Source: an uncultured Clostridia bacterium (GTDB lineage: Bacteria > Bacillota > Clostridia > Oscillospirales > Ruminococcaceae). Taken from it: DNA of 64,000 nucleotides. Location of the stretch: NCBI GenBank assembly GCA_947625615.1, contig CANQPB010000010.1:1-64000 (forward strand). The letters are read 5' to 3'. Shown here one piece after another: positions 1,072-40,611 of this stretch. Each line of letters starts with the position of its first letter. Positions within the stretch are counted from its first letter, which is position 1. The notes under the pieces were generated by a model. It saw only the letters and a program-made list of their open reading frames with translations, was not told the DNA's origin and did not search any database. A program made the position numbers and the translations under genes.

Positions 1072-1087
1072 AGTCACACGCCTTGGG

Positions 1088-1207
1088 TGTGTCCATTCCG
1101 CACGCATTATCAGAAATATTTAGATGCGTCGCCGCAGGCGACACCTTGAAACTCTAACTTCTAATTTCTAACTTCTATCTTCTTGATGTGGCCGTTTCGG
1201 CCACATC
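1088..1207 (+). mobile_element. MITE-like element, copy 1 (~120 bp)
   Basis: This sequence is about 90% identical by eye to 39491-39611, in the same orientation. Shared parts in order are a left edge GTGTCCATTCCGCACGC, a small hairpin GTCGCC-GCA-GGCGAC, about five tandem TCTAACT-type heptamers, and a right-end perfect hairpin GATGTGGCCG-TTT-CGGCCACATC (1185-1207). The direct repeat ACACGCCTTGGG flanks it at 1076-1087 and 1208-1219. It has no coding capacity. It sits immediately upstream of the rnhA promoter. Confidence 0.65.
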
Positions 1208-1223
1208 ACACGCCTTGGGCATA

Positions 1224-1252
1224 TTGACAAAATGCAAAATCGGTAGTATAAT
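1224..1252 (+). promoter_or_regulatory. Sigma-A promoter of rnhA and probably the Fe-S genes
   Basis: A consensus TTGACA (1224-1229) and a consensus TATAAT (1247-1252) are separated by 17 bp. Transcription would begin near 1259, about 40 bp before the rnhA start. Confidence 0.85.
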
Positions 1253-1301: not shown

Positions 1302-1754
1302 ATGAAAAAAGTACAGATTTTTACAGACGGCGCGTGCTCGGGAAACCCGGGAGCGGGCGGCTGGGGCGCGGTTCTCAAATATATGGGCCACCGGCGGGAG
1401 ATGTCGGGATACGAGCCGGACACCACCAACAACCGAATGGAGCTTACCGCCGCGATAATGGCGCTTAAGGCTTTGAAGGAGCCCTGCGACGTGACGCTTA
1501 CAACCGATTCGAAATATCTTGTCGACGGAATGACAAAGGGCTGGGCGCGTTCCTGGAAATTCAGGGGCTGGAAAAAGTCGGACGGAAAGCCGGCGCTTAA
1601 CCCCGATTTATGGGAGGAGCTTTTGGAGCTTTCGGATATCCACAAGATCACCTTTGTGTGGATAAAGGGGCATGACGGAAATCCCGAAAACGAGCGCTGC
1701 GACGCTCTCGCGGTCGGGGAATATTCAAGCAGACAAAAGGGCGACGCCCGATAA
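1302..1754 (+). CDS. rnhA: Ribonuclease HI
   Basis: This 150-aa protein has the full RNase H fold signature: [12 protein letters not shown] at the N-terminus with the first catalytic Asp, NNRMEL with the catalytic Glu, [10 protein letters not shown] with the second Asp, and a basic segment WKKSDGKP before VKGH-like WIKGHDGN. The family hydrolyses the RNA strand of RNA-DNA hybrids, for example primers and R-loops. The open frame extends upstream to 1188, but that part overlaps the promoter, and the ATG at 1302 gives the canonical '[17 protein letters not shown]' start. A consensus promoter lies 50 bp upstream. The desulfurase gene follows after 51 bp and is probably co-transcribed. Confidence 0.96.
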
Positions 1755-4192: not shown

Positions 4193-4426
4193 CCGTTTTC
4201 CCTGCGCCCTTTTCCGAATGCGAGGCGCCCTGCGGCGCCGCAATAAGGGGACGCCCTCTCTTGCAGGGCGTCCCCTCTTGCAAAAACAGTCCACCGGACT
4301 GTTTTTGCAATTCACCCCTTGCGGTGCGCCTGACGTATAGGATTTCGCAGTCTGCGGGCTGCGACCAGAGGCTCCTCGCCTCTGGATTCTCGCGGCCTTT
4401 TGAAAAAGGCCGGCGAAAACTTTTAT
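4193..4426 (-). repeat. Intergenic hairpin-array element, copy 1 (reverse orientation)
   Basis: Read on the minus strand this begins with AAAAGTTTTCGCCGGCC and a CCTTTTTCAAAAGG hairpin, identical over about 33 bp to the start of the element at 10825. Three more stems follow: an 8-bp stem CCAGAGGC..GCCTCTGG, a CAGTCC-GGT-GGACTG core extended to AAAAACAGTCC/GGACTGTTTTT, and GGGGACGCCC..GGGCGTCCCC. The 5' module and the CAGTCCGGTGGACTG core are shared with 10825-11060 and 33948-34224, while the stems between differ. No convincing gene is present from 4045 to 4471. Confidence 0.7.
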
Positions 4427-4432
4427 CATTAT

Positions 4433-10787: not shown

Positions 10788-10824
10788 GACGTAGAAAATG
10801 GAATAATTCCGTTTCGCCAAATGA

Positions 10825-11060
10825 AAAAAGTTTTCGCCGGCCTTTTTCAAAAGGCCGCGCGGGTCGAGGGGCGCGAAGCCCCCGTCGCGCTCCGCAGAGC
10901 GCGAAACACCCCCCGGAGGACGCCGAGCAGGCGTCCTCCGGGATAATGCGAAGCGAAGCGCAGGAGAGGGAGCCCGAAATCAGTCCGGTGGACTGTTTCG
11001 GGCCGGGGGAACCCTCGCCGGGGGTTCCCCCGGCGCAGTGACAGCTTGCTGTCGCTGCGC
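10825..11060 (+). repeat. Intergenic hairpin-array element, copy 2
   Basis: This is a run of at least six hairpins. It begins AAAAGTTTTCGCCGGCC with CCTTTTTCAAAAGG, then CGCGCT..AGCGCG (near 10890), CCGGAGGACGCC..GGCGTCCTCCGG (about 10913-10941) and CCCGAAAtCAGTCC-GGT-GGACTGTTTCGGG (10973-11001). It ends with GGGGGAACC..GGTTCCCCC (11005-11031) and GCGCAGtGACAG-CTTG-CTGTCgCTGCGC (11033-11060). The first 85 bp and the 10957-11031 block are shared with 33948-34224. Open frames across it are by-products of the base composition. From 11061 to 11216 only a further hairpin (11078-11105) is seen. Confidence 0.75.
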
Positions 11061-33947: not shown

Positions 33948-34224
33948 AAAAGTTTTCGGTCAAGCCTTTTTCAAAAGGCTTGCAGGGTCGAGGGGCGGCG
34001 CCCCTCGTCGCACTCCGCAGAGCGCGAAATCCTTATCCTAAAAAAGCGCAGGAGGGGGAGCCCGAAATCAGTCCGGTGGACTGCTTCGCAGGAAAGTCCG
34101 GCAAAGCCGGTAGTCTGCGAAGCAGACCCGAGGCATTGCCGAGGCGGCTTTGCAGCGCAACGCAAAACGAAAGTGCAATTTTGCAGAATTCTTTCGCGTT
34201 GCGCTCTCGCCGGGGGTTCCCCCA
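33948..34224 (+). repeat. Intergenic hairpin-array element, copy 3
   Basis: It begins AAAAGTTTTCGG and CAAGCCTTTTTCAAAAGGCTTG. CGAGGGGC..GCCCCTCG, an ACTCCGCAGAGCGCGAAATCC block and GGAGCCCGAAATCAGTCC-GGT-GGACTG follow. Two larger stems follow next: TGCTTCGCAG..CTGCGAAGCA (34082-34124, with an internal GTCCGGC/GCCGG arm) and GCGCAACGC..GCGTTGCGC (34155-34204). It closes with CCGGGGGTTCCCCC, as in the copy at 10825. It occupies the space between nfeD and dnaE; no gene is seen there. Confidence 0.75.
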
Positions 34225-37707: not shown

Positions 37708-38619
37708 TCACTGCTTTTTGTCGGCTATCAGTTCTATTCTTGCAAATCTGTGATTTATCCCCGAGCGGGTTAGGGGCGGATCCGCCATGGCGGCGAGCTC
37801 GTTGAGGCTGAGCTCCGGGCTTTTGAGCCGCAGCTCCGCAAGGCTTTTAAGCTCGTCGGGCAGATTGTGAAGCCCGCCGTCCCTCTCTATTATGCGGTTT
37901 ATCGCGTCTATCTGCCTGAGCGCCGAGCGGTTCTGGCGCTGGCAGTTGGCGGTATCGCAGTTGGTTGCGCGGTTGGCATGATTTCTTAAATCCTTATAAA
38001 TTTTCACGTTCATCAGTTCAAGGCTCGCCTTGGGTGCGCCGATAAAGGTGAGGACGTCCTCGACCTGTTCGCTCTCTTTAAAATAGAGCACCTGCGCTCC
38101 ACGGCGCAGGACTGTTCCCCCCTCGGCGCCTATCTGCTCCGAAAAAAGCGAAAAGAGGCTTTCGCAAAGCTTTGAAGACGGCGCGACGAATTCGAGGTGG
38201 TATTCCTTCTGCGGCTCGACAACGCTGCCGCAGCACAAAAACGCCCCGGCGGCAAACTGCCCCGAAAGCCTGTCCGACAGAGGGACAATCAGCCGCCTCG
38301 ACGAAGGATTCACCCCGGCGCTAAGGCATATTGCGTCGATATCCTCGGGGCGGCGGATCTTTACCGTCCAAAGATCGGGCCGCGACTTGAGCTCGCGCTT
38401 TGAGACCGAGCAGGAATTCTCCCCCGCCTCGTGGGTGCAGAGCTTTACAAAAAGATCGCGGACGGTTTTGTTTTCGGTCTGAAAGACTATTCCTCCGGGG
38501 CCGAGCTCGCGGCTGTATAAAAGCATTCCCGCAAGGCAGGAAAGGCATTTTTTCTTGCCGGTTATCCCGGCGGCTATCTCGGCCTTTACCCTGTGGGAAA
38601 AAAGCTCCTGCCCGCTCAT
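37708..38619 (-). CDS. whiA: DNA-binding protein WhiA
   Basis: This 303-aa protein has the WhiA architecture: a LAGLIDADG-like N-terminal half (FSHRVKAEIA, SCLAGMLLYSRELG), then the family hallmark RATNCDTANCQRQ and a C-terminal helix-turn-helix domain (SLNELAAMADPPLTRSGINHRF). WhiA binds DNA and influences cell division and chromosome segregation in Bacillota. The ATG overlaps the rapZ stop codon (ATGA), so the two are translationally coupled. In most relatives yvcK lies between rapZ and whiA; here it is missing. Confidence 0.95.
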   Translation of the reverse strand: MSGQELFSHRVKAEIAAGITGKKKCLSCLAGMLLYSRELGPGGIVFQTENKTVRDLFVKLCTHEAGENSCSVSKRELKSRPDLWTVKIRRPEDIDAICLSAGVNPSSRRLIVPLSDRLSGQFAAGAFLCCGSVVEPQKEYHLEFVAPSSKLCESLFSLFSEQIGAEGGTVLRRGAQVLYFKESEQVEDVLTFIGAPKASLELMNVKIYKDLRNHANRATNCDTANCQRQNRSALRQIDAINRIIERDGGLHNLPDELKSLAELRLKSPELSLNELAAMADPPLTRSGINHRFARIELIADKKQ

Positions 38620-39470
38620 TTGTCGACGCACCTGTGGTCGGCCCTGGCGTCGTGGCCCTCGTTTGAAAGGTCTGAAGATAGGCGGCGGGCAAAGCTTACG
38701 CTGCGGTGCTTTCCGCCGGTGCAGCCGAAGGCGATTACAAGGCGGGTCTTCCCCTCCTTGACGTACATGGGTATCAGAAAGCTGACGAGATCGTGTATCT
38801 TTTCGTAGAGCGCCTGCGCGTCGGCGGAATCGAAGACGTAGTTGTAGACCTCGTCGTCGAGGCCGTTTTTAGGCCTGAGTTCGGGAACGTAGAAGGGATT
38901 TTTCAGGCACCTGACGTCGAAGACAAGGTCGGCGTCCTTTGGCACGCCGAACATATAGCCGAAGGATACCACGTTGATTATCATCTTAACGTCGTCGCCT
39001 TCGAAAAGGCTGCGAAGCCTGCGCCTGAACGATGTCGTCGAATCGCGGGAGGAATCGAGGTAGATGTCCGCTATCTCGCGGGCAAAGGACATCTCCTTTC
39101 TCTCCATGGCAATTGCGTCAAGAAGGTTTCCCGAGGCCACGTCCTCAAGCGGGTGGCGGCGGCGGGTCTCTTTATAGCGGTTGACAAGCACGCTGTCGTC
39201 GCAGTCTATAAAGACTACCGTCACGTCGGCGCCGGAATTTCTGAGACCCGTGACGCTTTCGCGGAATTTTGAGAAAAGCTCGCCCGAGCGGACGTCCACC
39301 GCAAAACAGATCCTGTCCGTCTTGGGGACGGCGTTGCGAATAAGATCGGCAAAGCTCGCCAAAAGCTCGGGCGGCATGTTGTCTATGCAGTAGTAGTCGA
39401 GGTCTTCAAACACGTTTAAAGCGTTCGATTTTCCGGCCCCCGACATTCCGGTGACTATTACGATTTTCAT
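38616..39470 (-). CDS. rapZ: RNase adapter protein RapZ (YvcJ)
   Basis: This 284-aa protein has Walker A GMSGAGKSNALNVFED, the next conserved IDNMPPELL, RSGELFSKFRE, ETRRRHPL and a C-terminal IAFGCTGGKHRSVSFA. RapZ/YvcJ proteins bind nucleotides and, in enterobacteria, direct GlmZ sRNA decay in amino-sugar control; in Bacillota they affect competence and envelope functions. AGGAGG precedes the ATG. It is followed by whiA with a 4-bp overlap. A MITE-like element at 39491-39611 separates it from murB. Confidence 0.95.
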   Translation of the reverse strand: MKIVIVTGMSGAGKSNALNVFEDLDYYCIDNMPPELLASFADLIRNAVPKTDRICFAVDVRSGELFSKFRESVTGLRNSGADVTVVFIDCDDSVLVNRYKETRRRHPLEDVASGNLLDAIAMERKEMSFAREIADIYLDSSRDSTTSFRRRLRSLFEGDDVKMIINVVSFGYMFGVPKDADLVFDVRCLKNPFYVPELRPKNGLDDEVYNYVFDSADAQALYEKIHDLVSFLIPMYVKEGKTRLVIAFGCTGGKHRSVSFARRLSSDLSNEGHDARADHRCVDK

Positions 39471-39490
39471 TTTTCCTCCTTATTTAAGAC

Positions 39491-39611
39491 GGGAGTGTCC
39501 ATTCCGCACGCATTATTAGAAATATTTAATATGTCGCCGCATGCGACACCTTAAACTCTATCTTCTAATTTCTAAATTCTATCTTCTTGATGCGGCCGCT
39601 TCGGCCACATC
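39491..39611 (+). mobile_element. MITE-like element, copy 2 (~120 bp)
   Basis: The element begins GGGAGTGTCCATTCCG, holds a GTCGC..GCGAC hairpin and five TCTATCT/TCTAATT heptamers, and ends in the hairpin GATGCGGCCG-CTT-CGGCCACATC. A perfect 10-bp direct repeat TATTTAAGAC flanks it at 39481-39490 and 39612-39621, consistent with a target-site duplication. Its last base is part of the murB stop codon (TAG at 39613-39611 on the minus strand), so the insertion may have slightly changed the end of MurB. Confidence 0.7.
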
Positions 39612-40549
39612 TATTTAAGACCGCTTCTTTCTTCCGCCGGAATAAGTCTTACCTCCGGCTCAAGGGTGTATCCCGTCTTTTCCTTGACGGTTTTTTGGGC
39701 GTATTCCATAAGCCCGGTGATATCGCGGGAGGTGGCTCCCCCGCTGTTGATTATAAAGTTCGCGTGCTTCGGGCTTATCATCGCGCCGCCGATCCCGAAG
39801 CCCTTCAGGCCGCTTTGTTCGATGACGAGGCCGGCGTAAGTTCCCTCGGGGCGCTTGAACGCCGACCCGAAGGAGGGATATTCAAGCGGCTGTCGCGCCT
39901 TTCGCCTTGCTATCAGCTCGGACATTTTTAAGCTTATCGCCTCTTTGTCCCCCTTTTGAAGCCCGAAAGAGGCGTCTATGATGATCTCGCCGCTGCGCTC
40001 GAACCTTGAGGTGCGGTAGCCGAGGTTGAGCTCGGAGGGCGAAAGGGTGATGATCTTCTCGCCGGGGGCCATCGCCCTGACGGATTTTATTATACCCTTT
40101 ATCTCGCCGCCGTAGGCGCCGGCGTTCATGTATACCGCGCCGCCGACCGTTCCGGGAATGCCGTAGGCGAATTCAAGGCCGGTGAGCGAATGCTCGAGCG
40201 CAAACGCGCACACCGAAGAAAGCGGCACCCCCGCCGAGGCGGTGACGGTCTCGCCGTCGGCAAAAATTTTTCCGGTCTTCGAGGCGGGAGCTATAACCGC
40301 GCCGCGAAAGCCGTCGTCGGAAAAGAGACAGTTAGAGCCGTTGCCGAGCACCATTGTGTAAAGCTCTATGACTTTACACTTGAAATAAAGCCTCGCCGAG
40401 GTCTCGGAATCGGGGGAGATCAGCATGATGTCGCACTCTCCGCCCACTTTGACAGAGGTGTGCGCGCTGAGGGGCTCTCCCCTTTTTACCGAGCAGCCGA
40501 GATCGAGGGCGGCTCTCTCTATAAAGTCTATCTTTTCGGAATAAGTCAT
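39611..40549 (-). CDS. murB: UDP-N-acetylmuramate dehydrogenase
   Basis: This 312-aa FAD enzyme reduces UDP-GlcNAc-enolpyruvate to UDP-MurNAc. Motifs are LSAHTSVKVGGECD at the N-terminus, LGNGSNCLFSDDG (FAD), FAYGIPGTVGGAVYMNAGAYGGE, GYRTSRF, and the proton-donor Ser in YPSFGSAFKRPEG. The ATG at 40549 is chosen because GAGG is eight bases upstream; an earlier in-frame ATG at 40555 is too close to it. The stop codon lies in the end of the MITE-like element. The gene sits between the hprK block and rapZ in the usual Clostridia order. Confidence 0.96.
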   Translation of the reverse strand: MTYSEKIDFIERAALDLGCSVKRGEPLSAHTSVKVGGECDIMLISPDSETSARLYFKCKVIELYTMVLGNGSNCLFSDDGFRGAVIAPASKTGKIFADGETVTASAGVPLSSVCAFALEHSLTGLEFAYGIPGTVGGAVYMNAGAYGGEIKGIIKSVRAMAPGEKIITLSPSELNLGYRTSRFERSGEIIIDASFGLQKGDKEAISLKMSELIARRKARQPLEYPSFGSAFKRPEGTYAGLVIEQSGLKGFGIGGAMISPKHANFIINSGGATSRDITGLMEYAQKTVKEKTGYTLEPEVRLIPAEERSGLK

Positions 40550-40611
40550 AAACATAGCCTCACAAAATAAATCTGTGTTATATTATATGCGCGGCATGCC
40601 CGGCCGAGAGG

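Follow-up and report, generated by a model that had tools for sequence, protein, structure and literature searches.

The window analysed here, that is, the whole stretch of 64,000 nucleotides from an uncultured Clostridia bacterium, contains two copies of a sequence of about 120 bp, one in front of a gene and the other between two genes, which raises several questions: are these copies the traces of a mobile element? If so, which enzyme moves it? And what determines the places where it lands? An earlier note, made from the sequence alone, had described the copies as about 90% alike by eye and as what a small non-autonomous mobile element with target-site duplication would leave. Both copies lie where that note had put them, with an identity of about 92%, and a 22-base piece of the element matches the window twice and none of 100 shuffled versions of it, with up to three mismatches allowed. 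Copy 2 (39491..39611, plus strand, 121 bp) has the edges given before, together with the perfect 10-bp repeat TATTTAAGAC claimed for both of its sides (39481..39490 and 39612..39621). The left edge of copy 1 needed a correction from 1088 to 1085, since the GGG found there is the element's own start. Copy 1 thus spans 1085..1207 (plus strand, 123 bp), begins with GGGTGTGTCC, finishes with GGCCACATC and is flanked by the 9-bp duplication ACACGCCTT at 1076..1084 and 1208..1216, the GGG that follows past 1216 being a chance match. It carries an internal hairpin (1128..1142, plus strand, GTCGCC-GCA-GGCGAC) and a right-end hairpin (1185..1207, plus strand, GATGTGGCC-GTTTC-GGCCACATC), the latter corresponding, in an alignment by eye, to the right end of the IS1-family element discussed below. 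The perfect terminal hairpin that had been noticed holds for copy 1 (1185-1193 pairing with 1199-1207) and not for copy 2, which has one stem mismatch.

Downstream of copy 1 lies rnhA, encoding ribonuclease HI (1302..1754, plus strand; NF001236, E 3.8e-64), preceded by a promoter on the same strand with a -35 box TTGACA at 1224..1229, 16 nt past the copy, and a -10 box TATAAT at 1247..1252. Copy 2 is placed between murB (39611..40555, minus strand; NF010480, E 3.4e-99), with its stop codon at the copy's right edge and its 3' end overlapped by the right duplication, and the next gene, rapZ (38616..39470, minus strand; NF003828, E 6.2e-97); a promoter at the expected distance is absent there. 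Other features of the window are worth recording. Positions 74-943, adjoining copy 1, hold a 289-aa ORF without an NCBIfam match at E≤1e-10, and positions 944-1060, just upstream of that copy, hold a pyrimidine-rich TCTATCTTCTAACATCTAAC tract and two copies of ATTTTGCACACTTTGCAAAGC; TTCTAACTTCTAA tracts, resembling the TCTATCTTCTAACATCTAAC tract, occur inside the MITE and near other copies. A second dispersed repeat family, with the sequence AGTCCGGTGGACT... and GCCTTTTTCAAAAGGC blocks, is present at 4284-4430, 10820-11000 and 33964-34088, in both orientations.

Bacterial MITEs derived from insertion sequences are short, non-coding and present in many copies, with ends taken from the IS and a target-site duplication. 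In the organism's own genome (2.17 Mb in 58 contigs), a window copy used as the query found 43 matches at E≤2e-11, a number that rose to 65 distinct matches, fragments included, after the addition of copies found by the left-end pattern and of a query from a second subfamily. Both ends could be aligned in 49 of them, the other 16 being left out of the full-copy counts. The element is short (~120 bp), non-coding and multi-copy. As had been predicted for a mobile element, there are many copies with differing direct repeats: perfect repeats of 8-10 bp flank 29 of the 49 full copies (9 bp in 16 cases), while pairing the left and right flanks of different copies gave a mean of 0.095 and a maximum of 2 perfect repeats in 200 trials, and six further full copies have one mismatch over a repeat of 8-9 bp. 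These repeats differ from site to site, and the same direct repeat in all copies, which would have spoken against mobility, was not seen among the 49. Copy 1 is 100% identical to a copy on another contig (G000:C41) with a different flanking repeat, and such an identical sister points to recent movement. Among the 60 genomes searched, the element is present in 12, namely its own and 11 of 30 genus relatives (0 of 29 others); an exact 22-base piece of it also occurs in nine stretches of uncultured Clostridia metagenome assemblies with isolate names 'Lapin', and a search of phages, plasmids and viral contigs with the element gave zero matches. A separate observation concerns a relative's locus (L141, G018:C37), in which a related element of ~111 bp sits inside the ORF of an IS256-like transposase and is accompanied, by eye, by a near-duplication of 9 bp.

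Empty orthologous sites, the other outcome expected of a mobile element, were found for both copies. At the murB-rapZ junction, the element is missing from all 29 of the other genus members examined; one (L117) has a different insert of several hundred bases there, and in the rest the space is too small for the element. The rnhA promoter was recognisable by its conserved -35/-10 stretch, by eye, in 12 of 28 loci, and in eight of these the element was not seen within the 230 nt read. The remaining four carry it in front of the promoter, at 16 nt in the own genome and at 17 nt in each of G023, G021 and G016, which may reflect independent insertions or a common one. The insertion in the own genome is recent, judging from its intact repeats and its identical sister copy.

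The distance between copy 1 and the rnhA promoter proved to be a general property of the family. A promoter was called when the -35 and -10 boxes each matched at least 4 of 6 positions and the -35 box lay 15-18 nt from the right end. By this measure, 24 of 50 right ends in the own genome are followed by a promoter (5 of 55 ends, running into another element, were left out), compared with a mean of 1.36 and a maximum of 5 in 200 sets of shuffled flanks; the relatives, whose copies come from the loci at hand and are not a full census, gave 26 of 51 (7 of 58 left out), with shuffles at a mean of 1.55 and a maximum of 6. The shuffles used for the promoter counts of the MITE and of the IS keep base composition and do not keep dinucleotides. 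Furthermore, wherever a -35 box agreeing with TTGACA at 5 or more of its 6 positions was found at 15-18 nt, a -10 box followed 16-18 nt further on (20/20 in the own genome and 24/24 in the relatives), itself with at least 5 of 6 matches in 19 and 23 of these cases, respectively, whereas shuffled flanks show a -10 box in only 15-18%. It is therefore whole promoters, beyond the -35 hexamer, that mark the insertion site. When both sides were considered in 47 full copies of the own genome (2 of the 49 were left out), the promoter was on the right in 23, one of which has it on both sides, on the left only in 6 and on neither side in 18, with shuffles giving 1.2-1.3 per side and at most 5.

The distances peak sharply at 16-17 nt in the own genome, in the relatives and in the IS copies described below. 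Moreover, the same spot can be used repeatedly, as indicated by stacked copies that share one spacer of 8-10 bp: on contig C22, two successive copies are split by AGGCCGAAGG, which occurs again after the second copy, 17 nt before a -35 box, and in G021 a single 10-bp spacer sequence separates three consecutive copies. The elements found before the orthologous rnhA promoter in 4 of 12 genomes point the same way. Insertion of the MITE is thus aimed at complete promoters, at a fixed distance and with a bias for the right end, although its orientation is not strict. Two further observations can be added on the arrangement of copies. In the G021 array (L089, G021:C5), the identical 10-bp spacers TTCACCATCT between the three MITE copies differ from both outer flanks, a pattern expected if the array came from a circle or from tandem duplication. 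In addition, three own copies (L020, L034 and L049) end exactly at the -35 box, at offset 0 and without a duplication, as if the need for the promoter had stopped deletions.

Which enzyme could be responsible for this precision? In the 11 carrier genomes other than the own one, the left-end pattern of the MITE was found, among the matches listed, as plus/minus pairs 906-1025 bp apart in G019, where stretches of 905-906 bp contain two ORFs; complete copies of this IS measure 898-906 bp, with three end-search artefacts (L206, L217 and L219) left out of the copy counts. Its terminal repeats, GGGAGTGTACAAACCGCCCACA and GGGAGTGTCCATTCCACCCACA, are 22 bp long and identical at 18 of 22 positions in one copy, and perfect repeats of 8-9 bp surround four of nine complete copies, in line with the 8-10 bp duplication and the terminal repeats of about 20 bp of an IS1-type element. 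ORF A has an InsA zinc ribbon over the cut-off (PF03811, E 7.2e-8), with its cysteines present and 24% identity to E. coli InsA, and matches positions 1-80 of the NF033558 transpos_IS1 model (E 1.9e-16; 60.6 bits, the curated cut-off being 100). The match of ORF B to this model covers positions 90-199 (E 2.5e-7; 30.8 bits against the same cut-off of 100), and the ORF also matches PF03400, as InsB, with E values of 0.0014 and 0.0008 (19.4-20.2 bits, under the cut-off of 24.1); its identity to E. coli InsB is 22%, and its D, D and E positions coincide with D32, D93 and E121 of that protein. The pair typical of IS1, an InsA zinc-ribbon ORF and an InsB DDE ORF, is consequently present.

Between the two ORFs there is an A-run followed by C, a putative slippery site, which reads A7C in eight of nine genus copies and A6C in the other one; at two G036 loci, an A-run with C was absent at the computed position. 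By our own reading of the sequence, ORF B is shifted by +1 (or -2) with respect to ORF A, so that a fusion of both would need such a shift or transcript slippage. The InsB residues past ~137 extend beyond the IS1 model; they are conserved in the aligned genus copies and partly matched in G036.

The transposase was found in 7 of the 30 genus relatives, all seven among the 11 that carry the MITE, which is supporting and not independent evidence, since the carriers of both are related. G033 and G036 yielded distant partial matches, plasmids one distant match (28.5% identity, Deinococcus) and viral contigs none. Five of the 12 MITE-bearing genomes lack the transposase, including the own assembly, where a protein search gave zero matches. 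There, the left-end pattern (≤2 mismatches) occurs at 91 places, compared with 26 for a reversed control, and in 20 further left-end stretches the first 260 nt proved to be MITEs, fragments or chance matches, with the transposase absent from them in the protein search. Several of the IS matches sit at contig ends, which indicates that these assemblies break at such repeats; the fragmented own assembly could have lost its IS copy in this way, or the genome may truly lack it.

How do the ends of the two elements compare? When the right terminal repeat of the IS is read inward, 22 of the first 26 positions are, by count, the same in the usual left end of the MITE. The right ends, compared by eye (TTGATGTGGGCGGGTTGGACACTCCC in the MITE and TTGATGTGGCCGTTTCGGCCACATC in the IS), resemble each other in their inner part and differ in the outermost one: in the MITE, the inner bases recur on the outside as their reverse complement, forming the hairpin, and the outer terminal repeat of the IS is missing there. 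Terminal inverted repeats at both ends are thus absent from the MITE (right GATGTGGCC, read inward, versus left GGGAGTGTCC), and the remark that it has no clear long ones was right for it; the full-length partner does have 22-bp repeats, to which the left end of the MITE is similar. In the right-end stem, 844 of 882 positions are paired when 98 distinct copies are taken together, compared with a maximum of 826 for shuffled arms, both anchored at the element edge, and whole-stem variants occur (e.g., GATGTGGTC/GACCACATC). Template-switch repair of near-palindromes could preserve this stem as well as selection. In the internal hairpin zone, the best 6-bp stem is fully paired in 89 of the 98 copies, a figure obtained with the register chosen per copy and without a fair control. 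The right-end loops TGAT and ATCA, which are mutual reverse complements, appear three times each among the 98 copies, as if flipped. G018 also has related elements, 110-113 bp long, in which both terminal repeats are present (L176 and L177), likely the simpler deletion form.

The IS obeys the same promoter rule. From 20 distinct right ends, seven running into another element and one of a degenerate copy were left out, and nine of the 12 usable junctions have a -10 box preceded by a -35 box that matches at 5 or more of 6 positions and lies at 14-19 nt, a range to be read with right edges in C runs that are uncertain by a few nt (500 shuffles: mean 0.11, maximum 2); the other three have no promoter. 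With the window of 15-18 nt used for the MITE, the count is 7 of 12 (shuffles: mean 0.49, maximum 3). In G036, the genome of a member of another family, three matches all lie at exactly 16 nt, these being partial InsB matches for which whole elements were not delimited. Under the same criteria, such a promoter was found at none of the 14 flanks of the seven IS1 copies of E. coli K-12, a small sample; a less strict best-match score brings IS1A and IS1D close, with a distance of 14 nt. Taken together, the similar ends and the shared rule make the IS1-family element of ~906 bp the probable driver of the MITE. A transposase-bearing element with similar ends, which the earlier note had proposed to look for, therefore exists in genus relatives, and the repeats, the empty sites and this partner all bear out the description of a small non-autonomous mobile element.

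These data have to be weighed against other explanations, one of which is random insertion followed by selection for intact promoters. The edge-shifted copies that end directly at the -35 box, three of them at offset 0, are what selection for promoter integrity would give. However, survival alone would spread the distances broadly, whereas the observed peak is sharp, and the repeated use of the same spot also argues against randomness, so we consider this account improbable. Alternatively, the sequence might be an intergenic repeat that is not mobile, for instance a terminator, attenuator or insulator cassette that recombination has spread, as its two hairpins and some paired changes in the right-end stem might suggest; nevertheless, the differing perfect 8-10 bp repeats, the empty orthologous sites and the existence of an IS with similar ends leave this idea a probability close to nil.

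A different enzyme could also be at work, i.e., a Mutator-type transposase, either of the promoter-targeting ISLre2/TnGBS or ISKra4 kinds or of the IS256 elements of the genus. The MITE does match the p-MULT 3 elements in the 16 nt, the 8-9 bp duplication and the mostly right-end-first insertion; the distance of ~16 nt to the -35 box is common to the MITE, the IS and these Mutator-type systems, IS256-type proteins occur in relatives, and weak matches to the ISKra4 model come from five of the 60 genomes, all five of them MITE carriers. Nonetheless, no ISLre2 or ISKra4 transposase, and thus no Mutator-type enzyme of these kinds with matching ends, scored over the cut-off in any of the 60 genomes, and UPF0236 gave zero matches in the genomes searched, the control genomes being silent too. 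The 11 loci with weak matches encode an IS256-like protein in nine cases (PF00872, E about 1e-110 for the two tested) and an ISL3 transposase in another (L102; PF01610, E 6.9e-42), L134 being unassigned. IS256 itself was rejected as the driver: PF00872 has zero matches in the own genome, and the copies of the relatives have other ends (GATAAGGTACAAT and GGTCCTGTCAACC, by eye), unlike those of the MITE. IS256-type elements, moreover, show no promoter enrichment and no fixed promoter position, according to PMC3942029. Given that the matching ends belong to an IS1-family element and not to a Mutator-type one, a Mutator-type driver appears very unlikely.

We therefore return to the preferred explanation, to which we assign a probability of roughly 84%: the sequence is a MITE of ~120 bp, mobilized in trans by an IS1-family transposase and inserted so that ~16 nt separate it from the -35 box of a downstream σA-type promoter. 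According to it, the left end of the MITE would be an IS-like terminal repeat, and the right one would derive from the right end of the IS, with the outermost bases replaced by a reversed copy of the inner ones to form the hairpin. The IS1-family transposase of the relatives would move the MITE, setting one end of either element, mostly the right one, ~16 nt upstream of a σA-type -35 box, and would find the site via the promoter-bound RNA polymerase holoenzyme, rather than via the -35 hexamer alone. Insertion would duplicate ~9 bp and leave the core promoter intact, and the cell would tolerate the landing, as the gene further downstream retains its promoter. Between the duplicated 9 bp and the -35 box there are ~7 nt, which puts the duplication in the zone touched by the α C-terminal domains of the RNA polymerase. 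The 18 of 47 full copies without a promoter on either side, including copy 2 of the window, count against this explanation, as do the six with the promoter on the left only, the three IS junctions without one, the missing transposase of the own assembly, the missing outer terminal repeat at the right end of the MITE, the ORF scores below the curated cut-offs and the Mutator-type IS256 proteins present in MITE carriers. The fixed promoter distance and the IS1-family partner go beyond what the earlier note had read from the sequence.

A more ambitious picture, which we hold tentatively and at somewhat less than even odds, is that a lineage of IS1-type transposases independently evolved the docking to the σA RNA polymerase at promoters, pasting DNA into the α-CTD/UP-element zone 16 nt before the -35 box, maybe with the conserved C-terminal extension of InsB as the docking part and with hairpin-ended MITEs riding along, which would rewire, or insulate, what lies upstream of many genes in these uncultured Clostridia. 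The part of InsB past ~137 might conceivably be the one involved in targeting. If a 16-nt rule does operate in an IS1-family lineage and its MITEs, promoter targeting arose at least twice, and promoter recognition by transposases becomes directly testable by comparing two unrelated enzymes. An element that lands before promoters without breaking them would also offer a natural tool for insertion and give rise to regulatory change.

Among the known systems, the closest in behaviour are TnGBS and ISLre2, whose insertions, according to PMC3942029, lie 15-17 bp upstream of the -35 region, with the right end leading and with duplications of 8-9 bp, a contact with the initiation complex being proposed for TnGBS; promoter-directed transposition in bacteria is termed unusual in that text, which documents it for Mutator-type transposases. 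TnGBS/ISLre2 (p-MULT 3) and ISKra4 (p-MULT 4) thus resemble the present elements in their distance of ~16 nt from the -35 box of σA promoters, their mostly uniform orientation and their 8-9 bp duplications, but they use a Mutator transposase and the present partner is of the IS1 family. With E. coli IS1, this partner shares the two ORFs, the InsA cysteines, the D-D-E of InsB, the A-run followed by C, the short size and the NF033558 and Pfam IS1 models. It differs from it in its length (~906 bp versus 768 bp), in the low InsB/InsA identity of 22-24%, in the InsB residues past ~137 beyond the IS1 model, in the frame of ORF B, which is +1 (or -2), and in the promoter-positioned insertion, which was not seen at either end of the seven E. 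coli K-12 IS1 copies. IS1 itself uses a -1 frameshift and duplicates 9 bp. A literature search, with subscription journals, preprints and ISfinder outside its scope, found no report of promoter-positioned insertion by IS1-family elements. Finally, IS-derived MITEs such as MITEAba12 of Acinetobacter, compared by general description, share their general features with the present one, which departs from them in having a hairpin in place of the right terminal repeat, a promoter-directed insertion and an IS1-family parent. In our reading, an IS-derived MITE is in itself a known kind of element, and what is new is a parent family with such targeting, together with the end replaced by a hairpin.
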